A DNA stretch of 33,248 nt from contig JAAZUU010000014.1 in assembly GCA_018624035.1 (NCBI GenBank), positions 1 to 33,248 of the forward strand, in the 5' to 3' direction. The stretch is from Rhodobiaceae bacterium. GTDB taxonomy: Bacteria > Pseudomonadota > Alphaproteobacteria > Puniceispirillales > Puniceispirillaceae. Both the position numbers and the translations under genes were made by a program. Positions 16,537 to 32,876 of the stretch are shown piece after piece. Each line of letters begins with the position of its first letter. The stretch's first letter is position 1. The notes below the pieces were generated by a model. The model saw only the letters and a list, made by a program, of their open reading frames with translations, had not been told where the DNA came from and did no database searches.

Positions 16537-17169
16537 CTATTGCGGCCATGTCTCAAGGTCGAGCGGCCCGACCGCCGCCGCGGCACGGCCACGAAGAAAG
16601 ACGATCGTCACCGACCCGATCTCGACACCGAACTTGCTGATGAAGGCGCGGTTGATGGCGACATCCTCGTCCTGCCTGTAGATCCAGTCATCGAAATGCA
16701 CCGCAACCTCGCGCCCCGACATTTCCAGCACCACATCATATTCCCAGTTCAGCGCATTGCCGGCGATCCGGCCATTCGCCTTGCCACTGACATCGGCGGC
16801 GCTGCCTTCATAGACCACACTGCCGTCAGCCTCGGCTCCGGTCCGGCGGATCACCCAGGTACGGTCGGCACGCTCGCCATCATCATAGAGGAAATCCTCG
16901 ACCAGGGTCAGCGTGTCGCCCTCGACGGTGCCGGTCATATTGACCCGGAACTGGCGGCGCAGATTGCCGAATCTGTCCTCGAAAATGCCGTAGGCGACGC
17001 TGTCACCGGCAAAGAAGGCGGCAAGGTCGAGCGGCGGCCGGCGATCGGAAAGCGTGGCCACATCCTTGCGCGCGCAGGCCGACAGCCCGGCAAGAAGACC
17101 AATTGCCACGAGCGCGGTGAACATGAAGCCGGTCAGCCGGCGCATCATGGAAGGTGAAGATCGTCTCAT
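16537..17169 (-). CDS. DUF3833 family lipoprotein
   Basis: 210 residues. The N-terminal signal ends in a lipobox LSAC with C32 as the lipidated cysteine, so it is probably anchored in a membrane facing the periplasm. The mature domain has FFAGDSVAYGIFEDRFGNLRRQFRV, then LVEDFLYDDGERADRTW and a C-terminal MNRAF-like INRAFISKFGVEIGSVTIVF, a lipocalin-like beta-rich pattern matching DUF3833. ATG 17169 overlaps the stop of the upstream photolyase gene (ATGA). Function is unknown; recurrent linkage to photolyase and chalcone-isomerase-like genes points to membrane-lipid or photo-oxidative stress response. Confidence 0.85.
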   Translation of the reverse strand: MRRSSPSMMRRLTGFMFTALVAIGLLAGLSACARKDVATLSDRRPPLDLAAFFAGDSVAYGIFEDRFGNLRRQFRVNMTGTVEGDTLTLVEDFLYDDGERADRTWVIRRTGAEADGSVVYEGSAADVSGKANGRIAGNALNWEYDVVLEMSGREVAVHFDDWIYRQDEDVAINRAFISKFGVEIGSVTIVFLRGRAAAAVGPLDLETWPQ

Positions 17170-18716
17170 GTCGATGTCCTTTCGTCTGTCCGGTCGAGTG
17201 TGGCGAGAAACCGTGCCGCGTCATCGCGGATTTCCCCGACCCGTTCGTCCGCCATGCGATCAAGCGATTTATACATCATGCCAAGCCGGGCGTTGCCGCC
17301 AAGCCTGTCCCGGTTGCGGATCAGAAAGTCCCAATACAGATAGTTGAACGGGCAGGCCCCCTCGCCGGTTTTCTTCGCCACCCTGTAGCGACAACTGCCA
17401 CAATAGTTGGACATGCGGTTGATATAGGCACCGCCGGCGGCATAGGGCTTGCTGGCCAGATACCCGCCATCGGCAAACAGCACCATACCCGACACATTCG
17501 GCAACTCGACCCATTCATAGGCATCGGCATAGACGACAAGATACCATTCATTCACCTGCCGCGGGTCGAGGCCCGCCAGCAGCGCGAAATTGCCAAGAAC
17601 CATCAGGCGCTGGATGTGATGCGCATAGGCATAGCGCCGTGTCTGATCGATCGACTGCGCCATGCAGTTCATGTCGGTAGCACCGGTCCAGTAGAAATCG
17701 GGAAGCCGGCGGTCGGCGGCAAGGAAGTTCATGTCGGCATAGTCCGGCATCTTCAGCCAGTAGATACCGCGAACGAATTCACGCCAGCCAAGGATCTGGC
17801 GAATGAACCCCTCGACCGCGTTCAGCGGCGCATGGCCGGTGGCCCAGGCCGCCTCGGCGGCGCGCACAGCCTCGGCCGGCAGGATCAGCCCAGCGTTCAG
17901 ATAGAAGCCGATATGGCTATGATACATCCACGGCTCATCCGCTATCATCGCGTCCTGATAGGTGCCGAACAGCGGCAACCTCTCGGTTATGAAATGATCA
18001 AGCACCTGCAGCGCCTGATCGCGCGTTACGGCAAAGCCGAAATCGGCAAGGTCGCCAAAATGCCCGGCGCAGCGTGACTCCACCAGCGCCAGCACCTCGT
18101 CGGTGATCGCGTCAGGCCGGAATAGCAGCGGCTTCGGCACCGTCAGTGACAGGTCGGGAGGCTCGCGGTTGTCGGCATCATAGTTCCATTTGCCACCAAC
18201 CGGATCACCACCCTCCATCAGAATGTCATGGTGACGCCGCATCTCGCGATAGAAGAAATCCATGCGAAGCTGTTTGCGCCCCTCGGCCCAACCGGCAAAG
18301 AACCCCGGAGGACACATGAACCTGTCATCACCGCGAATCTCGACTGGGATGCCAAGGTCATCCTGCCAGTCACGCATAGCGGCCAGCACCCGGTATTCCC
18401 CCGGCTCGGTGGCAATCAGCCGGTCAGGAGCAAGACGCGCCATCGCGCGGGCGATCTCGCTAGTGATGCTGCCGCTGTTTTCCGGGTCATCAAGCCTTGT
18501 ATAATGGACCGTGATGCCCTCGGCCCGCAGGGATTCGGCGAAGTGCCGCATAGCGGCAAACAGGAAGGCGATCTTGCGTTTGTGATGGCGGACATAGGTG
18601 ACCTCCTCGATCACCTCGGCCATCAGCACGACATCCTGCGCCGGATCGAGATCGGCAAGGCCGGCAAGACCCCTCGTCAGCTGGTCACCCAGAACAAGCC
18701 GCAGCGCCCCGGCCAT
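17166..18716 (-). CDS. FeS-cluster cryptochrome/photolyase (FeS-BCP, PhrB-like)
   Basis: 516 residues. The N-terminal alpha/beta domain (LRLVLGDQLTRGL) is the photolyase-related protein type, and the C-terminal domain binds FAD. Four cysteines, C351 (MNCMAQ), C439 and C442 (YCGSC) and C455 (ACPFN), have the spacing of the [4Fe-4S] ligands of FeS-BCP proteins; Agrobacterium PhrB uses almost the same numbers. Members repair (6-4) photoproducts and carry a ribolumazine antenna. The ATG at 18716 overlaps the stop of the class I photolyase by one base and the 3' end overlaps the DUF3833 start, so translation is probably coupled. Confidence 0.9.
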   Translation of the reverse strand: MAGALRLVLGDQLTRGLAGLADLDPAQDVVLMAEVIEEVTYVRHHKRKIAFLFAAMRHFAESLRAEGITVHYTRLDDPENSGSITSEIARAMARLAPDRLIATEPGEYRVLAAMRDWQDDLGIPVEIRGDDRFMCPPGFFAGWAEGRKQLRMDFFYREMRRHHDILMEGGDPVGGKWNYDADNREPPDLSLTVPKPLLFRPDAITDEVLALVESRCAGHFGDLADFGFAVTRDQALQVLDHFITERLPLFGTYQDAMIADEPWMYHSHIGFYLNAGLILPAEAVRAAEAAWATGHAPLNAVEGFIRQILGWREFVRGIYWLKMPDYADMNFLAADRRLPDFYWTGATDMNCMAQSIDQTRRYAYAHHIQRLMVLGNFALLAGLDPRQVNEWYLVVYADAYEWVELPNVSGMVLFADGGYLASKPYAAGGAYINRMSNYCGSCRYRVAKKTGEGACPFNYLYWDFLIRNRDRLGGNARLGMMYKSLDRMADERVGEIRDDAARFLATLDRTDERTST

Positions 18717-20140
18717 CAGCCCGCCCCTTCACGAAGCGCGCTGAAGGCAGCCAGCGCGGACTCGCGCGATTCCTTCAGATCGACAACCGGGTGCGGATAG
18801 GTCTCGCCAAGCCGCACACCGGCCGCATCGAGAACATCGCACGGCGCGGTCCAGGGGGCGAACAGATATTTTTTCGGCAGTTTCGCCAGTTCGGGAAGAA
18901 AGCGACGCGTGTAGAGGCCGTCAGGGTCGAATTTCTCGCCCTGCGTTACCGGATTGAACACCCTGAAATAGGGTGCCGCATCGGCCCCGCAGCCGGCGAT
19001 CCACTGCCAGGACGCGCTGTTGCTGGCATGGTCGGCATCGACAAGACAGTCCCAGAACCAGGCCTCGCCATGATGCCAGTGAAGCCGCAGATTCTTCACC
19101 AGAAACGAGCCGGTCACCATGCGCATGCGGTTATGCATATAGCCTGTCTGCCACAGCTCGCGCATCGCCGCGTCGACAAAGGGGATGCCGGTGCGGCCAG
19201 TCTGCCAGGCGCGGAGCAGGCCGGCATCGTCGCGCCAGTCGAACCGGTCGAACTTGACCTGCAGATTGCGGCGCTTCAGTTCAGGGTTGAAATAGAGCAG
19301 CGAATGCGAGAATTCGCGCCAACCAAGCTCGGAACAGAAATTGTCGACATCGCCCTCGGGAAGGTCGACGCGGTCCCGCGCCGCGTGCCAGATCCGGTTG
19401 ACCGAAATCTCGCCCCAATGGATATGCGGCGACAGGCGCGAGACGTTCGGCGCCGCCGGCAGGTTCCGGCCATCCTTGTAGCCGGCAAGCCCGTGATCGA
19501 GAAACGCCGCCAGCCGGTCCCACGCGCCAGCCTCGCCGATCTGCCAGTGAGGTGCCAGAATTTCGCCCCAGTCCTGATCGGGAAGAAGGCCAAGCGATCC
19601 GATCTCGCTGGCCGGCGCATTCGGTGTCACGCTGACATCCGGAACAGGCAGAGGCGCGCGCGGCGGGGCGGCGGCAAGACAGCCACGCCGGTAAAAGGGC
19701 GTGAATACCTTGAACGGCGTGCCGTCACCCTTTTTCACTTCCCACGGCTCCCACAGCAGCGAGCCATTATGGCTTTCCGCCTCGATGCCGGCATCGGACA
19801 GCGCCGTTTTCAGCCTGGTGTCGCGTTCGATCCGCCAGGATTCATAGCTTCGGTTCCAGAACACCGCACCGGCCCCTGTTTCACGGGCCAGCGCCGGGAT
19901 CAGCGTCAGCGCGTCACCAGCCGCCACATGGAGCGTACCACCAAGCGAGTCCTTGAGAGCAGTGAGAGAGTGATGCAGCCACCAGCGGCTGGCCGCGCCC
20001 ATCGCATCCCGGCCGGCATTCACATCATCGAGTATATAGACAGGCAGCACATCGCCGCGCGCCGCGGCGGCGCACAATGCCGGATTGTCCGACAGACGAA
20101 GGTCCTGACGAAACCAGCAGATAGAGAGCGGGCGCGACAT
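18716..20140 (-). CDS. phr: class I CPD photolyase
   Basis: 474 residues. The N-terminal antenna domain begins LSICWFRQDLRLSDNPAL, and the FAD-binding domain includes SELGWREFSHSLLYF, TGIPFVDAAMRELW, GYMHNRMRMVTGSFLVKNL and the signature DADHASNSASWQWIAG. The enzyme splits cyclobutane pyrimidine dimers with blue light and reduced FAD. It is the first gene of a coupled series with the FeS photolyase, DUF3833, chalcone-isomerase-like and YciB genes. The 166 bases upstream contain TGATCC (20292-20287), the -35 sequence of the singlet-oxygen sigma factor RpoE/ChrR in Rhodobacter, but no good matching -10, so promoter type is unproven. Confidence 0.95.
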   Translation of the reverse strand: MSRPLSICWFRQDLRLSDNPALCAAAARGDVLPVYILDDVNAGRDAMGAASRWWLHHSLTALKDSLGGTLHVAAGDALTLIPALARETGAGAVFWNRSYESWRIERDTRLKTALSDAGIEAESHNGSLLWEPWEVKKGDGTPFKVFTPFYRRGCLAAAPPRAPLPVPDVSVTPNAPASEIGSLGLLPDQDWGEILAPHWQIGEAGAWDRLAAFLDHGLAGYKDGRNLPAAPNVSRLSPHIHWGEISVNRIWHAARDRVDLPEGDVDNFCSELGWREFSHSLLYFNPELKRRNLQVKFDRFDWRDDAGLLRAWQTGRTGIPFVDAAMRELWQTGYMHNRMRMVTGSFLVKNLRLHWHHGEAWFWDCLVDADHASNSASWQWIAGCGADAAPYFRVFNPVTQGEKFDPDGLYTRRFLPELAKLPKKYLFAPWTAPCDVLDAAGVRLGETYPHPVVDLKESRESALAAFSALREGAG

Positions 20141-20306: not shown

Positions 20307-21116
20307 TCAGAAAAAAACGAAACAACGGGTCTCGATACTTTGCCGCGGCGGCGCCTCCGGCGTTGATGCCGGGTCGGTGAAGGCGGTGTGGATGGTAAAG
20401 CGGGTCCGCCCGTCGGTTGCCGAGTCATAGGTCTTGATGAGCGCCACCTCATCCATCTCCATATGCGGGAAATAGACCCATTCATGGGCCGGGCTGAACC
20501 GCGCCATCTGGATTTGCCCGACGCGGTCCTGTGCCTGCCGGGTGACCTCTACCAGGTCGCCGGTGGCCAGGGTGCGGCTGTCACAGAAGGCCAGCGGACT
20601 GGTCTCGACCCGGCCGGCGATGGACCGCCAGATATTGATGATCGCGAAACGGCCGGCCAGCAGCGTCTCAGCCTCGTCGGGCAGGATATCACGAAGCCGG
20701 CGTTCGGCCGACCAGGGTGTGTAGTCATTATGGATCACCGATGACGGCTCGCGCATCACCTGTCGGCGGCGCAGGCTGTCGCTGGCGGCGCGGCGCGTAT
20801 GGTCGAAAACCTCGACCCGGCGCGCGCCGGTAACCCCCGCGACAAGTGACTTTGCCTCGGCGTCATAAACCGCCTCCAGCGCATCATCATCATGGAAATC
20901 GGTCATCGCGCTGACATGCGGTACCAGCATGAAGCCGGCACCATCCAGATCGAAATCGCGGCCTCGGCCGTCACAAATCGTCACCTCGCGCAGATCATAC
21001 CGGCCGTCATGATCGGCGGCGGCCCCGCCGGCCCGGGAGGCATGATAGACCGCGTCGCCGCCATCACTAGCGGCCAGATATTGCAATGTGGCGCGAACTG
21101 GCTGTGTGGCTGTCAT
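20307..21116 (-). CDS. CmcJ/NvfI-like putative Fe(II)/2-oxoglutarate oxygenase
   Basis: 269 residues. Recognised by VIHNDYTPWSAERRL (residues 127-141), IINIWRSIAGRVETSPLAFCDS (159-180) and WVYFPHMEMDEVALIKTYDS (213-232) followed by RFTIHTAF (239-246). This is the pattern of the CmcJ, AsaB and GA4-desaturase-like group. H129, D131 and H243 could form the 2-His-1-carboxylate iron site, and R239 the 2-oxoglutarate contact; this assignment is by analogy. It follows the ABC permease by 66 bases on the same strand and is probably cotranscribed, suggesting that it acts on the imported compound. Methyltransferase annotations attached to CmcJ homologues are probably misleading. Confidence 0.75.
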   Translation of the reverse strand: MTATQPVRATLQYLAASDGGDAVYHASRAGGAAADHDGRYDLREVTICDGRGRDFDLDGAGFMLVPHVSAMTDFHDDDALEAVYDAEAKSLVAGVTGARRVEVFDHTRRAASDSLRRRQVMREPSSVIHNDYTPWSAERRLRDILPDEAETLLAGRFAIINIWRSIAGRVETSPLAFCDSRTLATGDLVEVTRQAQDRVGQIQMARFSPAHEWVYFPHMEMDEVALIKTYDSATDGRTRFTIHTAFTDPASTPEAPPRQSIETRCFVFF

Positions 21117-21182: not shown

Positions 21183-21926
21183 TCAGCGTCGGTCGGACAT
21201 GCCCATACGCGATTCAAGCCACCTGACCCCGGCCGAAACCAACAGGATCAACACCAGATACTCCATCACAAGAACGGTGTAGATTTCAAGCGGCCGGTAT
21301 TCGGTGACAACAAGTTCATTGGCGCGGCGGGTCAGTTCCTCCATGCCGATGACCGAGACAAGCGACGACATCTTCAGCATGTAGACAAGCTGGTTGCCAA
21401 GCGCCGGCAGGATCCGCTTGATGGCCTGCGGCAGGATCACGAACCGCATCTTGTCGACATAGGACAGCGAGATCGAATGCGCCGCCTCATGCTGGCCGCG
21501 ATCGATCGACTGGATGCCGGCGCGGAAAATCTCGGCCTGGAAGGCGCTGTCGGAGATCGCTAGCGCCAGCACGCCGGCCCAGAACACCGAAATCGAAATA
21601 TCGGCGACCTGCGGCAGGCCATAATAGACCCAGAGGATCAGCACAAGGATCGGCACCGCCCGCACAAGCTCGACATAGACGCGGTTGATCACCCGCGGCG
21701 GGCGCTGGCGGGCCAGTCCCGGCAACGCGACCAGAAGACCAAGCAACACCGAGATGGCGATCGCCGTCACCGACAGGGCGATGGTGTAATACAGCCCATC
21801 GAGAAGGAACATCAGATTGCGCTGACCCGCCGGCGTCGTCGGATTGACGACATACCATCCCCAGTTTCCCGAACAGCCGGCCAGCGCGAAGAGGGTCAGC
21901 AACGGCCAGAATTTCAAAATCCGCAT
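21183..21926 (-). CDS. amino-acid-type ABC transporter permease (HisM/GlnP family)
   Basis: 247 residues, with about five to six membrane segments. The EAA loop EAAHSISLSYVDKMRFVILPQAIKRILPALGNQ (from near residue 147) contacts the ATPase. Family-typical LVRAVPILVLILWVYYGLP is present. Only one permease gene is visible, so a homodimer is likely. The N-terminus, LTLFALAGCSGNWGWYVVNP, looks like a lipoprotein signal (LAGC) joined to the permease. It starts 9 bases after the ATPase stop. Together with the binding protein encoded at 25949-26725 it would form a polar-amino-acid or related small-molecule importer. Confidence 0.88.
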   Translation of the reverse strand: MRILKFWPLLTLFALAGCSGNWGWYVVNPTTPAGQRNLMFLLDGLYYTIALSVTAIAISVLLGLLVALPGLARQRPPRVINRVYVELVRAVPILVLILWVYYGLPQVADISISVFWAGVLALAISDSAFQAEIFRAGIQSIDRGQHEAAHSISLSYVDKMRFVILPQAIKRILPALGNQLVYMLKMSSLVSVIGMEELTRRANELVVTEYRPLEIYTVLVMEYLVLILLVSAGVRWLESRMGMSDRR

Positions 21927-21935
21927 GATGCGCCC

Positions 21936-22709
21936 CTAATTCCGCAGGATCTGCTGCAGGAAGGTCTTGCAGCGATCGCTTTCAGGCTCCGAGAAAAAGC
22001 GTTTCGGCGGCGCCATCTCGACAATCCGGCCGTGATCCATGAACACCATCTTGTCGGCGACATGGCTGGCAAAGCCCATCTCGTGGGTGACCACGATCAT
22101 CGTCATGCCGGTGGCGGCGAGCTCTTCAATGACATCCAGCACCTCGGCGATCATTTCCGGATCGAGCGCCGAGGTCGGCTCGTCGAACAGCATGATCCGC
22201 GGTTCCATGCACAGCGCCCGCGCGATCGCCACCCGCTGCTGCTGGCCGCCTGACAGCTGGTCGGGGAATTTCTGCATCTGTTCGGGGATCCGCACCCGCT
22301 CGAGGTAATATTCAGCCAGTTCGCGCGCCGCCGCCGGTGCCAGACCGCGCGCCCGCAGCGGGCCAAGTGTCAGATTGTCGAGAATGGACAGATGCGGGAA
22401 CAGATTGAACTGCTGGAACACCATGCCGACATTGTTGCGAAGCACCGCCCGGGCGGCAGCGCTGTCATCAACCGTCACGCCGTCGATCATGATCTCGCCG
22501 GCATCATGCTGTTCCAGCCTGTTGATGCAGCGGATCAGGGTTGATTTGCCCGACCCGGACGGACCGCAGATCACAACCTTCTCGCTCATCCCGATATCGA
22601 GACTGACCTGGTCGAGCGCCTGAAACGCGCCAAAGAACTTGCTGACATCCCGCATGCGAATGAGGGGGGCCGCGTTGCCGTCCTGTGCTGCTGATTTTTT
22701 CGCTGGCAT
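21936..22709 (-). CDS. amino-acid-type ABC transporter ATP-binding protein
   Basis: 257 residues from ATG 22709, which has CAGGA seven bases upstream; a more distal start would add an unconserved leader. Walker A GPSGSGKST, Q-loop MVFQQFNLFPHLSILDN, signature LSGGQQQRVAIARAL, Walker B IMLFDEPTSALDPE and switch histidine VTHEMGFA are all present. This is the GlnQ/HisP type that pairs with HisM-like permeases. It is the promoter-proximal gene of the ATPase-permease-oxygenase series and is divergent from the AhpD-like gene. Confidence 0.94.
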   Translation of the reverse strand: MPAKKSAAQDGNAAPLIRMRDVSKFFGAFQALDQVSLDIGMSEKVVICGPSGSGKSTLIRCINRLEQHDAGEIMIDGVTVDDSAAARAVLRNNVGMVFQQFNLFPHLSILDNLTLGPLRARGLAPAAARELAEYYLERVRIPEQMQKFPDQLSGGQQQRVAIARALCMEPRIMLFDEPTSALDPEMIAEVLDVIEELAATGMTMIVVTHEMGFASHVADKMVFMDHGRIVEMAPPKRFFSEPESDRCKTFLQQILRN

Positions 22710-22840
22710 CAAATTGTCCTGATATGCAATGGCCCATCTGACCAGACAGCGCGCCACGACGCAATGCTGACAATGCGACCTTATCCCGTCATCCGGCATG
22801 ACTTTACAAGACCCTTTCCAAAAAGCGCTTGAAAACGCGC

Positions 22841-22859
22841 CTGCAAGGCCGCTTTGCAG
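22841..22859. promoter_or_regulatory. inverted repeat in the divergent transporter/oxygenase promoter region
   Basis: CTGCAA-N7-TTGCAG is a perfect 6-bp inverted repeat roughly central in the 249-bp gap between the ATPase and AhpD-like starts. It is a plausible operator shared by both transcription units. No regulator gene lies next to it. Confidence 0.35.
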
Positions 22860-22958
22860 AGAGCGAGTTTGCGATTGACGCCAGCGCCACCCAGGCCCAA
22901 CATGCATTAAGGAAATTGAATGTAGCCTGACGTGGCGTGCCTATTCCGGGGGGGATGC

Positions 22959-23534
22959 ATGGCAGCGTGGATTGAGATGATTGGCGATGCCGATGCCGGC
23001 CCCTCGTTGCGAGAGGCGCTGGACAACGCCAGAACACCGCATGGCACCGTCGACAATGTGATGCGTGTGCATTCGCTGCGCCCGAACACAATGACCGGGC
23101 ATGTTGTGCTTTACCGGGCAGCGCTTCACGACGATGCCAACACCTTGCCAACCTGGCTGCAGGAAACCATAAGCTCCTATGTCTCGGTGCTGAATGACTG
23201 CGCCTACTCCTTTGCCAACCACTGGAAGAACGCCGCGCATCTGATCGGTGACGCGCCCCGCGCCGCACAGATCGAGGCGGCCATTCATGCGCGCTCCCCG
23301 CAGAACGTGTTTGACGGCGCCGAACTGGCGCTGATGCGCTATGCCGAAAAACTGACTGTCGCACCGAATGAAATGGAAGAGGCGGATGTGATCGCCCTTC
23401 GCGAGGCCGGACTTGATGACGGTGCGATTCTCGAGGCCAACCAGATCATCTGTTACTTCAACTATGTGAACAGAAGCATCAACGGCCTTGGTGTGACGAC
23501 GGAAGGAGACGTCATCGGCTATTACGCCGACTGA
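22959..23534 (+). CDS. AhpD-like/carboxymuconolactone decarboxylase family protein
   Basis: 191 residues from ATG 22959. The fold marks are SYVSVLNDCAYSFANHWKN (73-91), DGAELALMRYAEKLTVAP and a C-terminal FNYVNRSINGLGV, typical of the peroxidase-related AhpD-like proteins. The usual CxxC redox pair is altered to C81-A-Y-S84, with H88 retained, so normal AhpD disulfide chemistry is doubtful. It is the first gene of a plus-strand series; the next gene starts 19 bases after its stop. It might be a hydrolase- or decarboxylase-like enzyme of the pathway, as in carboxymuconolactone decarboxylase, rather than a peroxidase. Confidence 0.8.
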   Translation: MAAWIEMIGDADAGPSLREALDNARTPHGTVDNVMRVHSLRPNTMTGHVVLYRAALHDDANTLPTWLQETISSYVSVLNDCAYSFANHWKNAAHLIGDAPRAAQIEAAIHARSPQNVFDGAELALMRYAEKLTVAPNEMEEADVIALREAGLDDGAILEANQIICYFNYVNRSINGLGVTTEGDVIGYYAD

Positions 23535-23553: not shown

Positions 23554-24750
23554 ATGAATAATCAGATACATGGGTTCGGCGCGGCCAATCTGATCGACAA
23601 CTGCCTTGGCACTGTCGAGGGCATGACGATCCTGCTTGTCTGCGAGGACCCGCGGCATGGCTGGTATGACCACGCCGCCCCGGACCATGTTCATCACGAA
23701 CTGCTGGCCCGCGGTGCCACGGTCAGGCGGATGATGGTCGATCTGCCGGAAAACCGCCCGAACGACGCTGTGCAGGCGGCGATGAACAAAGTCGATCGTG
23801 TGATTTTCTTCTCGCGGCTTGGCGATCAGGGACGCTTTGACTGGCATTACACGGGCCCACCCTGCGTCATGAGCTATGCGCTGAATGAAGACATGCTCGA
23901 TGGTGGGTACGGATCACTCGACCATCTGTCCATGTGCCGGCTGAAGGCCGCCATCGACGAGGTGACACTTGGTGCAGACCACATCCGTGTAACCTGCCCG
24001 CTGGGAACATCGTTCGAGGGCAGCCCCGGCGCCACCGCGGCGAGCGGCAGCGAGGTCGTCATCCACCGCTTTCCAATGGGCATCCCGCAGCCTGTCCTTG
24101 CCAGGGGTTTCAGTGGCAAGGCCGTGCTTTCGCATTATCTGACGCCAACCGGCTCGAGGATCTACTCGCCGGACTATTTGCCACTTCGTGACCCCGTCAC
24201 CGCGCATTTCGAGGCAAGCCGCATCACCGGGTTTTCCGGCCAGGCCGACCTTGTGGCCGAAGTCGAGTCGCATTACGAACGGGTGGCGCGGGACTTTGGC
24301 CTTGATGGCTACAACATCGATTCCTGGCATGCCGGCATCCATCCGCTGATGTCCTATGACCGGCCGGCGGCGCTGGACCCGCTGCGCTGGTCCGGGACGG
24401 CGTTCCAGCATCCGCGGCTGCTGCATTTTCACACCTGCGGAAGTGGACCGCCAGGGGAAATCTGCTGGATGATCCTCGATCCGACAATCGAGGTTGACGG
24501 GATCGCGCTGTGGGAGCAGGGACGGCTTCACCCCGAGCGGTTCGCCACAACAAGGCAGGTTCTTGATGCCGACCCGGCGCTTGTCGCCGCCTTTCGGGCG
24601 CCAACAGGCCCGGTCGGGGTTGAACCTGTCCAGACAGTTGAACCTGTCCAGCCAAGGGCGGTATCAGAGCCGCCTGCGTCAAGAGCGGCAGAATCAAGAG
24701 CGGCGGAACCCGCCCTGACAGAACCGGCCCTCGCGTCACAAGGGGCGTGA
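23554..24750 (+). CDS. M29 aminopeptidase/NicX-like putative metal-dependent dioxygenase or hydrolase
   Basis: 398 residues. I recognise the M29-type (aminopeptidase T) superfamily from HIRVTCPLGTSFEGSPG (143-159), NIDSWHAGIHPLMSYDR (254-270) and LLHFHTCGSGPPGEICWMILD (289-309). The same architecture is used by 2,5-dihydroxypyridine dioxygenase (NicX), where a His in the first segment and an HxD in the second bind iron. Here H259 or H263 and H291-x-H293 are the likely ligands. The C-terminal 50 residues are low-complexity and built from two tandem duplications (VEPVQ and SRAAE). Placed one base before a Rieske oxygenase gene, a ring-opening role is attractive but unproven; a peptidase remains possible. 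Confidence 0.6.
   Translation: MNNQIHGFGAANLIDNCLGTVEGMTILLVCEDPRHGWYDHAAPDHVHHELLARGATVRRMMVDLPENRPNDAVQAAMNKVDRVIFFSRLGDQGRFDWHYTGPPCVMSYALNEDMLDGGYGSLDHLSMCRLKAAIDEVTLGADHIRVTCPLGTSFEGSPGATAASGSEVVIHRFPMGIPQPVLARGFSGKAVLSHYLTPTGSRIYSPDYLPLRDPVTAHFEASRITGFSGQADLVAEVESHYERVARDFGLDGYNIDSWHAGIHPLMSYDRPAALDPLRWSGTAFQHPRLLHFHTCGSGPPGEICWMILDPTIEVDGIALWEQGRLHPERFATTRQVLDADPALVAAFRAPTGPVGVEPVQTVEPVQPRAVSEPPASRAAESRAAEPALTEPALASQGA
24619..24654. repeat. 18-bp tandem duplication in the M29-like gene tail
   Basis: GTTGAACCTGTCCAGACA is followed by a copy differing in two of the last bases (GTTGAACCTGTCCAGCCA). It repeats VEPVQ in frame. Confidence 0.9.
24679..24708. repeat. 15-bp tandem duplication in the M29-like gene tail
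   Basis: TCAAGAGCGGCAGAA is followed by TCAAGAGCGGCGGAA, repeating SRAAE in frame. It is the second independent duplication within 100 bases. Confidence 0.9.
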
Positions 24751-24751
24751 G

Positions 24752-25798
24752 ATGGCTGATATCGAGACCCAGTTCATCCGCGACTGCTGGTATGTCGCCG
24801 GCTGGAGCACCGATTTCACGCACGCGCTGACACCGCTGCGGATCCTTGACGAGCCGGTCGTCATCTTCCGCACCGAGACCGGTGTGCCGGCGGCGCTGGA
24901 GGATGCCTGCCCGCACCGCAAACTTCCTTTGTCAAAGGGGCGACTCATCGGCGAGACGGTCGAGTGCGGCTATCATGGCCTGACCTTCGACTGCAGCGGC
25001 GCCTGTGTGAGGGCACCGACACAGGATGGGCCGCCGCCGACCGGTGTGACTGTCAGATCCTATCCGGTGGTTGATCGCTGGGGGATCCTGTGGATCTGGA
25101 TGGGTGATGAGGCGGCGGCAGACCCGGACAGCATCATCGAGATTCCGAATTATGACAACCCGGCCTGGGGCCGGACCCCCGGCGGCAGCATGGATATCGC
25201 CTGCCATTATCTTTACGTCATCGACAATCTGCTCGACCCGTCGCATGTCGCCTGGGTCCATGTCTCGTCCTTTGCCGGTGCCGGCACCGGCAATCTGCCG
25301 CTTGATATCGAGAAACTCGATGACGGGGTCATCGTGTCACGCTGGGTCATGGACGCACCGCCACCGCCCTATTACGAACCGATCCTGCCCTTCTCCGGCA
25401 ATTGCGACCGCAAGCAGCATTATGAGTGCCGGCTTCCCTCGACGGCGATCAACATGTCGGTCTACAGCCGCGCCGGCACCGGCGGCGACGATGCCAACCT
25501 GCCGGATGATGTCTTCCTGAACATCTCTTATAATTTCATGACCCCGGTCGATGCCGACAACACACGATATTTCTGGTTCCAGCACCGCAATTCCGACCCC
25601 GACAATGAAGAGATGTCCCGGCAGATGTTCGAGGGCGCCAAGGCCGCCTTCATCGAGGATCGTGACGTGCTGGTCGAGGTCCATCGCGGCATGAAGGAAA
25701 GTCGGACGCGGCATATCAATCTGGGAATCGACGCCGGCGCGATGCGGTTTCGCAAGATGGTCGAACGCCGGATCGACGGTGCCACCACGGTCGATTGA
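24752..25798 (+). CDS. Rieske non-heme iron oxygenase, VanA-like alpha subunit
   Basis: 348 residues. The Rieske [2Fe-2S] ligands are C53 and H55 (CPH) and C72 and H75 (CGYH). The mononuclear iron site fits D162-x2-H165-x4-H170 (LLDPSHVAWVH). The N-terminus FIRDCWYVAGWSTDF is typical of the vanillate O-demethylase/phenoxybenzoate-dioxygenase group, which hydroxylate or demethylate aromatic and heteroaromatic rings. The start is one base after the M29-like stop, with AAGGGGCG upstream. No VanB-type reductase is visible in the window, so electrons must come from a reductase encoded elsewhere. The pathway substrate is unknown. Confidence 0.9.
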   Translation: MADIETQFIRDCWYVAGWSTDFTHALTPLRILDEPVVIFRTETGVPAALEDACPHRKLPLSKGRLIGETVECGYHGLTFDCSGACVRAPTQDGPPPTGVTVRSYPVVDRWGILWIWMGDEAAADPDSIIEIPNYDNPAWGRTPGGSMDIACHYLYVIDNLLDPSHVAWVHVSSFAGAGTGNLPLDIEKLDDGVIVSRWVMDAPPPPYYEPILPFSGNCDRKQHYECRLPSTAINMSVYSRAGTGGDDANLPDDVFLNISYNFMTPVDADNTRYFWFQHRNSDPDNEEMSRQMFEGAKAAFIEDRDVLVEVHRGMKESRTRHINLGIDAGAMRFRKMVERRIDGATTVD

Positions 25799-25948
25799 TC
25801 GGCCCTGCGACGACATGGCACTGGCCGGAAATCGGCAAAACTGTCCAAAAAACGCGAGGAGCGGTTGCAGACACTTGATGTAATGGCCATCTGCGGTCTA
25901 CCCTTGAAGGACAGTTTGTCGCACCCGAACTCAGTAAGGAGTCGTTCC

Positions 25949-26725
25949 ATGAAGTTTTTTAAGTACGCGCTTACCGCCTTTGCGCTGGTCTGTGCCGCCA
26001 TTCCGGCGCACGCGCAAAACACCCTCCAGGATATTCTTTCAAACGGCGTTCTCAAGGTCGGCACGACCGGCGACTGGAACCCGATGACAATGAAGGATCC
26101 CGCCACCAACAGCTATACCGGCTATGACATCGATGTGATGACCGCGCTGGCCAAGGATCTCGACGTCAAGATCGAGTTCGTGCCGACTGACTGGAAGACG
26201 CTGGTCAGCGGTGTCGTTTCGGGCAAGTACCACATGACCGGATCGGCTTCGATCTCGCCGGCGCGCGCCAAGGCGGCAGGCTATTCGAACAGCTACTTCT
26301 CGCTTGCCACCGTGCCGCTGACGCTGAAGAAGAACGCCGGCAAGTTCAATGACTGGGCCGATCTGGACAAGGCAGACGTGACCGTCGCGGCAACGCTCGG
26401 CACGACGCAGGAAAAGCAGGTCAAGCAGTTCTTCCCGAACGCCAATCACAAGATTGTTGAAGCCCCGGCCCGTGACTTCCAGGAAGTTCTCGCCGGCCGC
26501 GCCGACGCGCACATCACCTCGAATGTCGAGGCGTACAAGCTTGTGGCGAAATATCCCGAGATGATGGTTGTGCCGGTATCCGCGCCGAAAGCACGGACTC
26601 CCATCGCCATGCTGTTGCCGCAGGGCGACCAGGTCTGGATCAATTATGTCAACACCTGGATCAAGCTGAAGACCGAGCGCGGTTTCTTCGACTCGCTTGG
26701 CAAGAAATGGCAATTGTCGAACTGA
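25949..26725 (+). CDS. periplasmic solute-binding protein (family 3, PheC-like)
   Basis: 258 residues from ATG 25949, with AAGGAG upstream. Signal peptide residues 1-22 (MKFFKYALTAFALVCAAIPAHA) are followed by QNTLQDILSNGVLKVGTTGDW. The domain matches family 3 binding proteins (GYDIDVMTALAKDL, FVPTDWKTLVSGVVSGK, EVLAGRADAHIT). The VGTTGDW start and the PQGDQVWINYVNTWI end resemble cyclohexadienyl dehydratase PheC, which shares this fold. The lack of nearby aromatic-amino-acid genes and the presence of an ATPase-permease pair at 21183-22709 favour transport. It sits 150 bases after the Rieske gene and ends in a strong terminator; the gap shows no clear promoter. Confidence 0.85.
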   Translation: MKFFKYALTAFALVCAAIPAHAQNTLQDILSNGVLKVGTTGDWNPMTMKDPATNSYTGYDIDVMTALAKDLDVKIEFVPTDWKTLVSGVVSGKYHMTGSASISPARAKAAGYSNSYFSLATVPLTLKKNAGKFNDWADLDKADVTVAATLGTTQEKQVKQFFPNANHKIVEAPARDFQEVLAGRADAHITSNVEAYKLVAKYPEMMVVPVSAPKARTPIAMLLPQGDQVWINYVNTWIKLKTERGFFDSLGKKWQLSN

Positions 26726-26744
26726 CACGGCCACAAAAACCGAC

Positions 26745-26773
26745 GGGCGGGAGATTGCTCCCGCCCTTTTTTT
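26745..26773 (+). terminator. rho-independent terminator after the binding protein gene
   Basis: Perfect 9-bp stem GGGCGGGAG/CTCCCGCCC with an ATTG loop and seven T residues. It begins 19 bases after the stop and closes the plus-strand unit before the GST gene. Confidence 0.93.
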
Positions 26774-26792
26774 GTCCACACCGGGGGCATCG

Positions 26793-27446
26793 ATGACGAT
26801 CACACTCTACAATGTCGCTGTCAGCAGCTATGGCGCGAAGGTGCGGATCATGCTGCGTCACAAGGCGCTGGAATGGACCGAGATCGCGCCGCCGGATGGC
26901 TATGGCAGCGATGCCTATCGCCGGATCGTACCGGCAGGCACGGTACCGGCGATCATCCATGACGGTCTGACACTCGCCGATTCCGAGGCCATCGCCGAAT
27001 ATCTGGATGAGCGGTTCCCGTCGCCAGCCATGATGCCCGGCGATATCGAGTCGCGGGCGCGGGCGCGTGAATTGTCGCGCTTCCACGACACGCGCCTCGA
27101 GCCGGTTCTGCGGTCCTTTTTCGGACAGGTCGCACCGCATGGTCGCGACGCCGATTTCATTGCCGGGAATGCGCGCCTTCTGCAGTCACGGCTTGACCAG
27201 CTTGCAATCATGGCGTCGCCGTCACCGCTGCTGACCGGTGGCGCGCTGGCGATCGCCGATTGCGGCTTTGTCGCCAGCTTCGCCATCCTCGATCTGCTGA
27301 AGGAATGCCTTGATCTGCCAGTGGCCATGCCGGACGATCTGACGAGCTACGCCGGGGCGCTGGCCATGCATCCGTCGGTCAGTGACGAGGATTCCCACTA
27401 TCGCGCGGCACTTCGTGACTGGGCGGAGGCAAAAGGCGCGCTTTGA
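26793..27446 (+). CDS. glutathione S-transferase family protein
   Basis: 217 residues from ATG 26793, in the short space after the terminator. The thioredoxin-like domain carries SSYGAKVRIMLRHK near residues 11-24, where the serine is the likely glutathione-activating residue, and the cis-proline segment GTVPAIIHDGLTLADSEAIAEYLDE near 49-73. A helical C-terminal domain follows (LLTGGALAIADCGFVAS). Family members conjugate glutathione or isomerise, dechlorinate or ring-cleave intermediates. A role in the adjacent oxygenase locus is possible, since GSTs often accompany aromatic degradation genes. The final codons lie inside the first unit of an 18-bp triplicate repeat. Confidence 0.88.
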   Translation: MTITLYNVAVSSYGAKVRIMLRHKALEWTEIAPPDGYGSDAYRRIVPAGTVPAIIHDGLTLADSEAIAEYLDERFPSPAMMPGDIESRARARELSRFHDTRLEPVLRSFFGQVAPHGRDADFIAGNARLLQSRLDQLAIMASPSPLLTGGALAIADCGFVASFAILDLLKECLDLPVAMPDDLTSYAGALAMHPSVSDEDSHYRAALRDWAEAKGAL

Positions 27447-27494
27447 CTTGCCGGGCTGCTTTGACTTGCCGGGCCACTTTGACTTGCCGGGCAA
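27441..27494. repeat. 18-bp tandem repeat, three copies, at the GST gene end
   Basis: CTTTGACTTGCCGGGC plus two variable bases is repeated at 27441, 27459 and 27477. The first copy contains the GST stop codon. The third copy's GCCGGGCAA (27486-27494) can pair with TTGCCCGGC at 27512-27520, and the earlier copies carry the same GCCGGGC core. Confidence 0.92.
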
Positions 27495-30107: not shown

Positions 30108-31448
30108 CTAGACATTCAAAAGAAGATATTCGCGCTCCCACGGGCTGATCACCTCGAGAAAGGCATCGGACTCACCGCGTTTGACCTCGATAAACAGTTT
30201 CACGAACTGCTCACCGAGAATTTCCTGGAGAGGGCCGGCCCTTTCCAGCGCGTCGAGCGCGATATCAAGGTTGCGTGGCAACGTCGTCAGATCCTCGCCG
30301 CTGACGGTACGTGGTCGGGTGGGGCGGCGCTGTTCGCGCAGCCCAAGCCAGATCGCCGCGAGGCTGGCGGCGATCGCCAGATAGGGGTTCGCATCCGCCC
30401 CGGGAACGCGGTTCTCGATTCGGCGGTTGGCCGGATCACCGGTCGGAACACGAAGACCGACCGTCCGGTTGTCCATGCCCCAGGCAAGGTTGGTGGGCGA
30501 ATCCTCGGTCAGCGAATGCCGGCGGTAGGAATTCACATAAGGCGCCATCAGGGCCATCGCCCCGGACAGGTAGCGTTGCATGCCGGCAAGCGCGTGAAAG
30601 AAGGCCTCGCTGTCCTCGCCATCCTCGGTGACGAACAGATTGCGTCCGGTTTCCAGATCACGCACCGACAGATGGACATGCATCGCGCTGCCCGGCTGGT
30701 CCTGCATCGGTTTTGCCATGAAGGTGGCGTGAAGATTATGGTTCAGTGCTGTCTGCCGCACCGTCCGCTTGAACAGGAAGGCCTGGTCGGCAAGTTCCAG
30801 CGCGTCACCATGGTTGAAATTGATCTCCATCTGCGCCGCCCCGGCCTCATGGCTCAGCGTGTCGATGTCGATCTTCTGCACCTCGCAGTGATCATAGATA
30901 TCCTCGAACAGCGGGTCGAATTCGTTGACCGCGTCGATGCCATAGGCCTGGCGCGCCTTCTCGGCCCGCCCCGATTTGCCTTTCGGGCTGACAAGCGGAT
31001 TGTTGGCGTCGGCGCTCTGCTCGACAAGGAAGAATTCCAGTTCCGGCGCGACGACGGGTTTCATGCCGGCATCCTCGAACAGCGCCAGCACGCGTTTCAG
31101 CACCGCGCGCGGCGTGAAGGGCACGATCCGGCCCTCATGGTCACAGGCGTCATGGATAATCTGCGCCGTCGGCTCATCATACCATGGCACCAGCCGACAG
31201 GAATTGGCGTCCGGGCGCAGGATCACATCGGCACCGATTTCGTTCAGCACCTCGCTGTCCAGATAGGCGCCGGTGACCGACTGGCCGAAGACATATTCAG
31301 GCAACCGCAAGCCACCCGATTCGGCAGCCGGGATGAATTTATGCACCGGCAGGATCTTGCCACGCGGAATGCCGGCAATATCGCTGACAAGGCATTCCAC
31401 CTCGGTGATCGACTGTTCGGTCAGCCAGCCATGCATGTCGAAAGTCAT
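30108..31448 (-). CDS. puuA: glutamine synthetase family protein, gamma-glutamylputrescine synthetase-like (PuuA)
   Basis: 446 residues. The beta-grasp start (VECLVSDIAGIPRGKILP near 17-34) is followed by the catalytic domain with PELEFFLV, HEAGAAQMEINFNHGDAL, SAMHVHLSVRD, NSYRRH, NRTVGLRVP and RIENRVPGADANPYLA. These match GS-like enzymes that glutamylate amines, rather than housekeeping GlnA: no adenylylation tyrosine loop of GlnA type is evident. PuuA-like function is supported by the neighbouring SpuC-like aminotransferase and PuuB-like oxidase. The reaction would be putrescine plus glutamate plus ATP to gamma-glutamylputrescine. The ATG at 31448 has AGGAG seven bases upstream, in the proximal unit of a triplicated repeat. 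Confidence 0.82.
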   Translation of the reverse strand: MTFDMHGWLTEQSITEVECLVSDIAGIPRGKILPVHKFIPAAESGGLRLPEYVFGQSVTGAYLDSEVLNEIGADVILRPDANSCRLVPWYDEPTAQIIHDACDHEGRIVPFTPRAVLKRVLALFEDAGMKPVVAPELEFFLVEQSADANNPLVSPKGKSGRAEKARQAYGIDAVNEFDPLFEDIYDHCEVQKIDIDTLSHEAGAAQMEINFNHGDALELADQAFLFKRTVRQTALNHNLHATFMAKPMQDQPGSAMHVHLSVRDLETGRNLFVTEDGEDSEAFFHALAGMQRYLSGAMALMAPYVNSYRRHSLTEDSPTNLAWGMDNRTVGLRVPTGDPANRRIENRVPGADANPYLAIAASLAAIWLGLREQRRPTRPRTVSGEDLTTLPRNLDIALDALERAGPLQEILGEQFVKLFIEVKRGESDAFLEVISPWEREYLLLNV

Positions 31449-31455
31449 GCAATAT

Positions 31456-31498
31456 CTCCTGTTGCGGGGGCTCCTGTTGCGGGGGCTCCTGTTGCGGG
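31456..31498 (-). repeat. 15-bp repeat, nearly three copies, carrying the puuA ribosome-binding site
   Basis: On the minus strand CCCCCGCAACAGGAG is repeated at period 15, with the distal copy missing two bases. Each copy ends in AGGAG. Only the proximal one is correctly spaced (7 bases) from the start codon at 31448. Confidence 0.93.
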
Positions 31499-31508
31499 CA
31501 AAATCACC

Positions 31509-32876
31509 TCAGAGCCCAAGCTCGTCCGCTGTCGCGTCGAGCGCCGCCGCCACCATGTTGACGGTGGCGTCGATATCATTCCGCCCGAAGGTCAGCGGCG
31601 GCGACAGGATCATGGCGTCGCGCACCGCGCGCATCATCAACCCGCCGGCGATGGCGTGATCGCGGCAGATCACGCCGGCAGCCCCGGTATCGGCGAACAT
31701 TTCCGGCCCGTCCCCGGATTTCACCAGCTCGATGGCCGCCAGCATGCCGAATGTCCGCACCTCGCCGACGATCCGGTGATCGGCCAGCGGCGCCAGTGCG
31801 GCGGCAAGATAGGGCCCGGTATCGGTGCGCACCCGTTCGATCAGGCCCTCGCGTTCGATCAGGTCGAGATTGGCCAGCGCCACCGCGGCGGCAACGGGAT
31901 GACCGGAATAGGTGAAGCCGTGATAGAACTCGCCGCCATCGGCGATCAGCCTGTTCGCCACCCGGTCTCCGACCATCACCGCCGACATCGGCACATAGCC
32001 CGAGGTCAGCCCCTTGGCCAGCGTCATCATGTCGGGCTGCAGACCCATCGTCTGGCTGGCGAACCATTCACCGGTGCGCCCGAACCCGGTGATCACCTCG
32101 TCGGCGATGAACAGGATGTCATGCTGACGGCATATTTCCTGAATATGGTCGAAATAGCCTTGCGGCGGGATGATCACCCCGCCGGCGCCCTGTACCGGCT
32201 CGGCGATGAAGGCGGCGACCCGGTCGGCACCGACCTCGTCAATCCGCTCGGCAAGCCAGGAGGCGGCATTGGCGGCAAAGGCGGCCTCGTCCTGATTGCC
32301 CTGATAGACAAAGCCATATGGCGGGCGGATATGTTCGAAATCGGCTTCATGCGCCGCCTGTTCATGCATGCCCGACATGCCGCCCATGCTGGCCGCCATC
32401 ACGGTGCTGCCGTGATAGCCATAGTCGCGGCCGATGATCACGCGCTTTTCGGGCCTGCCCTCCAGCGCCCAGAAATGGCGCACCATCCGGATGATGGTGT
32501 CGTTCGCCTCCGATCCGGAATTGGCATAGAAGACATTGTTCAGACCATCCGGCGTGATGGCGGCAAGCCGCGCCGAAAGTTCGGCAATCGGCCGGTTGCT
32601 GGTCTTGAAGAAATTGTTGTAATAGGGCAATTCGGTCATCTGGCGGGCGGCCGCCTCAACAAGTTCCTGCCTGCCATAGCCGACATTCACGCACCACAGG
32701 CCGGCCATGCCGTCGAGGATTCTGTTGCCCTCGCTGTCATGGATGTAATGACCGTCCGCATGGGTGATGATCCTGGCACCATGCCTGCGCTGTTCCGCGT
32801 AATCGGTGAAGGGTGCCATATGGTGCGCCGAATCCAGCGCCTGCCATTCGCCGGTCGAAAGATCCTCGAGTGTCAT
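31509..32876 (-). CDS. class III omega-aminotransferase, SpuC-like (putrescine/polyamine transaminase)
   Basis: 455 residues. PLP site: SGSEANDT near 120-127, YHGST near 154-158, FIADEVITGFGRTG near 256-269 with D259, and TLAKGLTSGYVPMSA near 285-299 with Schiff-base K288. The N-terminal HHMAPFTDY and GLWCVNVGYGRQEL match the putrescine-pyruvate and beta-alanine-pyruvate aminotransferase group. It lies upstream of the puuA-like gene on the same strand, 60 bases between, and is divergent from a puuB-like oxidase, so polyamine catabolism is the probable role. The start region is a 16-bp tandem duplication; the adjacent Shine-Dalgarno is poor. Confidence 0.85.
   Translation of the reverse strand: MTLEDLSTGEWQALDSAHHMAPFTDYAEQRRHGARIITHADGHYIHDSEGNRILDGMAGLWCVNVGYGRQELVEAAARQMTELPYYNNFFKTSNRPIAELSARLAAITPDGLNNVFYANSGSEANDTIIRMVRHFWALEGRPEKRVIIGRDYGYHGSTVMAASMGGMSGMHEQAAHEADFEHIRPPYGFVYQGNQDEAAFAANAASWLAERIDEVGADRVAAFIAEPVQGAGGVIIPPQGYFDHIQEICRQHDILFIADEVITGFGRTGEWFASQTMGLQPDMMTLAKGLTSGYVPMSAVMVGDRVANRLIADGGEFYHGFTYSGHPVAAAVALANLDLIEREGLIERVRTDTGPYLAAALAPLADHRIVGEVRTFGMLAAIELVKSGDGPEMFADTGAAGVICRDHAIAGGLMMRAVRDAMILSPPLTFGRNDIDATVNMVAAALDATADELGL

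Follow-up and report, generated by a model that had tools for sequence, protein, structure and literature searches.

The question raised by this locus is which metal site, and with it which chemistry, belongs to M29L, a protein of 398 aa encoded at 23554..24750 on the forward strand of the window, i.e., the whole stretch of 33,248 nucleotides from a Rhodobiaceae bacterium that was analysed. The gene begins with ATG, and the folded part of its product covers approximately residues 9-348; the four histidines on which an earlier note had built its proposal, H259, H263, H291 and H293, are all present in the translated reading frame. The first residues, MNNQ, are common to the two closest relatives aligned (L020 and L003), and about 19 residues near the N-terminus, between MNNQ-x-x-GF and GAANL, are absent from M29L (23554-23590) in comparison with these two proteins.

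The M29L sequence has no match in Pfam, NCBIfam or the PDB, and the PDB sequence search also returned no match for A1, L036, L038 or the profile of 22 family members; in the same search L071 matched NicX. No better profile match to an unrelated family, of the kind that the earlier note had set against its own assignment, emerged from the 22 members searched in Pfam at E values up to 10, where only chance-like names appeared, the best of them DASH_Duo1 in two members (E 0.0021) and PKAT_KLD in seven (E 0.11), none of them spanning the domain. The AlphaFold model of M29L, predicted from 22 sequences (mean pLDDT 86.5, pTM 0.83), finds NicX (7cn3) in Foldseek as the top of the matches listed (E 4.9e-13), followed by the M29 peptidases PepS and AmpS. 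VIA-align gives the same order, with NicX (7cn3_A; Z 22.6 over 300 aligned residues, rmsd 4.0 A) as the best among the matches listed, the M29 aminopeptidases at Z 14.8-16.4 (AmpT 16.4; AmpS and PepS 14.8-15.5), the crocagin proteins CgnE and CgnB at about 11, and the next unrelated row at 8.3. The M29/NicX fold claimed in the earlier note is thus well supported by the predicted structure.

The last 50 residues (349-398; 24598..24747, forward strand) form a low-complexity tail with two short tandem duplications. An exact direct repeat of 15 bases begins at 24619 and again at 24637, a spacing of 18, and encodes VEPVQT/VEPVQP, while an exact repeat of 11 bases begins at 24679 and 24694, where TRF reports a 15-base unit over 24679-24708 with a score of 53. 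The two duplications from which the tail had been said to be built are therefore real, and they account for only part of the 50 residues; the disorder expected for it agrees with a pLDDT of about 41 over residues 363-398. The tail is confined to the nearest relatives and differs among them, L020 having a different tail with a repeat of its own (SFPADSFPADP) and L003 a further tail, with L005 ending near residue 355. It is probably a fast-changing, disordered addition in the closest relatives, and it has no bearing on the active site. Further short arrays were detected by TRF at 27439-27492 (18-base unit, three copies) and 31456-31498 (15-base unit, 2.9 copies), so that short tandem duplication is common in the window.

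Conservation was followed in 37 members (35 plus L103 and L104, with L025, a C-terminal fragment, among them), which form 23 clusters at 70% identity. S257, H259, H291 and H293 are invariant in all members and in all clusters, and within the HFHTCG segment the HxH pair is accompanied by C295 in 34 of the 37 members. Position 302 is occupied by E in 32 members, D in four and H in one (19, three and one of the clusters), and this variation among E, D and H only fits a metal ligand. At position 304 the family has C in 23 members, S in nine and A in five (13, six and four clusters). Position 263 is H in 31 members and N in six (18 and five clusters); because of the Asn, H263 is disfavoured as a ligand and, judging by the alignments, is probably not one.

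Relatives of M29L were found in 19 of 61 near genomes. At the level of the class they occur in 13 of 385 genomes, with three distant cases (G438, G274 and G430), and in the phylum sample in four of 398, all four from the same class. Among the carriers are a bacterium of the SAR116 cluster and further alphaproteobacterial MAGs, the window genome itself (G000) being of 2.75 Mb. Twelve plasmid records of Leisingera, Ruegeria, Paracoccus, Alisedimentitalea and another Rhodobacteraceae strain also carry the gene, annotated in all twelve as a "hypothetical protein".

The position of the metal site depends on the register between M29L and its structural relatives. NicX holds its iron through His265, Ser302, His318 and Asp320, each of them essential according to passages of one report (PMC7910607), and His348 of AmpS is given as a metal ligand in a passage of another (PMC7023490). 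As a control, NicX and 17 homologues were aligned, and H265, S302 and H318 are kept in 18 of 18 sequences and D320 in 17, with one X. A NicX-type protein encoded elsewhere in the window genome (L105 6988-8037, on contig C178) also keeps H265, S302, H318 and D320; given the presence of this ordinary NicX-type protein, M29L is not simply the NicX of its genome. The C178 protein has Val at the position of NicX Glu177.

Seven profile alignments of the M29L family against NicX-type or L038-type sequences were compared, one from a first run and six from a further set of nine. In all seven, S257 of M29L falls on NicX His265. The His318 slot is taken by H293 in five alignments and by E302 in two. For the Asp320 slot the split is four alignments with C304 and three with C295, and H291-x-H293 falls on the NicX HxD in none of the seven. 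The structural register was obtained from residues 1-296 of M29L predicted alone (pLDDT 89.5) and was read from the end residues of the VIA ranges. Residue 296 of this model is matched to NicX 305 in each of the two NicX chains listed, which, given no gap at the end, equates H293 with Ser302; the same model ends on 353 in 1zjc, 4icr, 4icq and 4ics and on 350 in 2ayi, which, given no end gaps, equates H291 with AmpS His348 (the His348/345 position). Past H259, the strands of the full model follow in the order 289-294, 303-308, 311-314 and 317-321. The second of these would match HLDIPL, read from the NicX sequence, and would put E302 on His318 and C304 on Asp320. The structural and sequence registers partly disagree, since five of the seven alignments place H293, rather than E302, on His318. 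Under every register the NicX set of iron ligands is incomplete in M29L, the His265 slot being S257 in 37 of 37 members.

These results bear directly on the site proposed in the earlier note, in which M29L is a NicX with a conservative exchange of Asp for His, with H259/H263 at the NicX His and HxH in the place of HxD. The invariance of the HxH pair, and its location within the metal-site half of the fold, speak for this proposal. On the other hand, neither placement was recovered, given that S257 and not H259 lies on His265 in every alignment, that the position of H263 is Asn in six members, and that the HxH pair never falls on HxD, the structural ends placing H293 on Ser302, one strand earlier. 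A simple Asp-to-His exchange is therefore highly improbable. The metal or the reaction may still differ from those of NicX, as the note had suggested, and the register results make this more likely, not less.

The putative metal site of M29L would consist of H259, H291, H293 and E302, distributed over three segments of the forward strand. The first, S257-W-H259-A-G-I-H263 (24322..24342), carries S257 at the His265 slot. The second, H291-F-H293-T-C-G296 (24424..24441), lies on the strand matching NicX 300-302, with H293 at the Ser302 slot, and the third, E302-I-C304 (24457..24465), is the proposed equivalent of NicX His318-x-Asp320 in the register suggested by the model. Provided that the structural register holds, the site keeps a carboxylate, at position 302. 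Three histidines, or three histidines and a Glu, around a non-haem metal make up the set found in cupin-like centres.

The genes around M29L point to catabolism. Upstream, on the same strand, lies an AhpD/CMD-like gene of the "peroxidase-related" type (22932..23534; TIGR01926, 89.0 bits against a cut-off of 81.8), which probably starts at 22959, judging by homologues of 191 aa. Its product contains NDCAYSFANH, which, read against the two-Cys motif of AhpD-type proteins, keeps the first Cys and has Ser at the second. Downstream, the alpha subunit gene of a VanA-type Rieske oxygenase (24752..25798, forward) starts two bases past the last base of the M29L stop codon and is followed by the family-3 solute-binding protein of an amino-acid-type ABC importer (25865..26725, forward; start uncertain) and a glutathione S-transferase-like protein (26697..27446, forward). 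A divergent arm on the reverse strand comprises the amino-acid-type ABC permease (21183..21926), the ABC ATPase (21936..22907), whose domain begins at residue 82 and whose true start is probably further in, and a CmcJ/NvfI-family oxidoreductase (20307..21116; NF041278, 282.2 bits, cut-off 80). Two adjoining photolyase-type genes, one of the DPRP family and one DNA photolyase, lie at 17166-20140 on the reverse strand. The GS and class-III aminotransferase genes (30108-32876) keep their place only in the genus of the window and were left out of the cluster.

The neighbourhood was surveyed in 31 loci besides the window, i.e., six plus 20 chosen from the genome matches and five of the 12 plasmid matches, each family being represented by a single BLAST query (E no higher than 1e-12, more than 60 bits); G047, G044, G056, the three distant genomes, L103, L104 and the window itself were left out, as were G002, G004 and G007, whose contigs are equal in length to those of L020-L022. 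A CMD-like gene lies near M29L in 25 of the 31 loci. The Rieske oxygenase is present in 16 and a 2OG-Fe oxygenase in nine, so that 25 loci have one of the two queried families and no locus has both. When the six loci from the genus of the window are set aside, the CMD-like gene and one of the two oxygenases are each found in 19 of 25. Six of the 31 loci have neither queried oxygenase and six have no CMD-like gene, in some cases owing to contig ends, given that the contigs of L025, L042, L048, L050, L051 and L054 end close to M29L. The importer is represented by the solute-binding protein (SBP3) in 18 loci and the permease in 20, the ATPase tallies including unrelated ABC ATPases. Lower counts were obtained for GST (10/31), the XRE-cupin regulator (9/31), SoxA (9/31), HutH (5/31) and the NicX-type gene (2/31).

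SoxA accompanies the Rieske gene in eight of its nine loci, and never occurs with the 2OG-Fe gene or HutH. By NCBIfam, the Hut genes of L043 are named above the cut-offs, the Sox genes of L023 just below or below them, and the SoxA of L061 above. The annotations of the Rhodobacterales plasmids independently give a peroxidase-related enzyme, a ring-hydroxylating oxygenase, an amino-acid ABC importer, sarcosine oxidase subunits and hut genes. The either/or pattern of the oxygenases is limited to the two queried families, because a distant Rieske ORF (25% over 182 aa) is present in L046 and an annotated phytanoyl-CoA dioxygenase, of a family outside the census counts, adjoins the Rieske gene in L062 and L063. 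The two loci with a NicX-type gene beside M29L belong to one genus (L047 2641-3669, with a 60% homologue in L048), and ring cleavage there may be the work of that gene. The genes of one M29L cluster may serve different pathways. In Leisingera sp. M658 (L059 19185-24006), the genes adjoining M29L encode a flavin reductase, an LLM monooxygenase, an aldehyde dehydrogenase and an alpha/beta hydrolase, a set which presumably resembles the trigonelline (tgn) genes.

Compared with NicX (2,5-dihydroxypyridine 5,6-dioxygenase; 7cn3, 7cup), M29L shares the overall fold, the strand order of the C-terminal domain, the catabolic setting and, as predicted by the model, the likely position of the metal centre. 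It differs in being only 15% identical, in gene neighbours that are not the same, in a loop between the Ser302-type and His318-type positions that is 7 residues shorter, and in reading S257/H293/E302/C304 for H265/S302/H318/D320 if the structural register holds. The longer L036/L037-type ORFs (529-607 aa, from two genomes; L036 1039-2628, L037 805-2628) are matched by the M29L family profile (E 3e-17 and 2e-16, respectively) and have H259, H263 and the HxH pair in common with M29L. In these proteins, on the other hand, the surroundings of position 302 differ in sequence, and the position itself is His by gapless count from the last hairpin and Asn in the HMMER alignment. No Pfam model matches L036.

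The preference for ring opening has to be weighed against a metal-dependent hydrolase with chemistry like that of the M29 aminopeptidases (AmpT, AmpS and PepS; 2ayi, 1zjc, 4icq/4icr/4ics), which would open a lactam, a cyclic amide or an N-acyl bond without O2. The same fold holds both hydrolases and a dioxygenase, H291 falls by end residues on the His348/345 ligand position, and amidohydrolase genes of the creatininase family lie near M29L in six of the 31 loci. The EEHYHD set of the M29 enzymes nevertheless appears not to be kept, its first Glu slot, as located through the NicX-type alignments, reading S257 in all 37 members. In searches with E values of up to 10, PF02073 (M29) has no match in the 22 M29L members or in the whole window genome, with five of 14 control genomes matching, and no peptide-related genes were seen near M29L. 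Given also that NicX is the better fold match and that the neighbours are oxygenases, such a hydrolase is rather unlikely. Still less probable is a non-catalytic protein whose role would be to bind a partner or an intermediate of the pathway, for which the crocagin proteins CgnE and CgnB (6zsu, 6zsv), among the fold matches listed, provide the precedent. Their likeness to M29L is of fold only (identity 7-10%), their setting is unrelated and they are not known to have metal chemistry. A metal site in M29L is favoured by its three invariant histidines and by the restriction of position 302 to E, D or H over the 23 clusters.

The reading preferred here, which we hold at about an even chance, is metal-dependent ring opening with a rearranged site, in a marine catabolic cluster. 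M29L would be a cytoplasmic metalloenzyme forming its own branch of the NicX/M29 fold, with the metal, for which Fe(II) is a guess, sitting where the fold normally places it and held by the rearranged H259, H291 and H293 and the carboxylate of E302. The ABC importer would take up a small, amino-acid-like nitrogen compound, and one oxygenase, either Rieske or 2OG-Fe, would oxidise it. M29L would then open the oxidised product, a ring or a cyclic amide, the AhpD/CMD-like protein may act in the step that follows or in a related one, and the product may drain to an N-methyl amino acid or glutamate (or to glycine-type metabolism) through Sox- or Hut-type enzymes.

A bolder version adds M29L to the NicX/M29 fold as a third class of catalyst, i.e., a His3-Glu enzyme with H293 in the place of Ser302 and H291 in that of the M29 His, opening an N-methylated marine N-heterocycle; taken as a whole, this version is unlikely. 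Homarine would be an attractive candidate substrate. A NicX-like C5-C6 opening of oxidised homarine would give a product of the N-formyl-N-methylglutamate type, with N-methylglutamate one step away, which the Sox/Mgd-type enzymes adjoining M29L could demethylate. Mgd is kin to the heterotetrameric sarcosine oxidase. A role of Mgd in homarine catabolism is mentioned, as cited work, in a passage of PMC13390433, and the six pathway terms sought are absent from a paper on SAR116 (PMC12262181). For ergothioneine/hercynine and methylhistidine, considered as substrates in view of the Hut genes, the literature matches listed contain nothing specific.

Finally, in the searches run neither Pfam nor NCBIfam gave a name to the M29L branch, which nevertheless marks clusters of SAR116-like and Rhodobacterales bacteria whose probable role is to consume a nitrogen-rich metabolite. 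With M29L, a fold associated with a single ring-cleaving dioxygenase and with one family of peptidases would acquire a branch that draws its metal site from other positions, a test of the re-invention of metal chemistry inside one fold, and the identification of its substrate would turn the gene into a marker for the flux of that metabolite.
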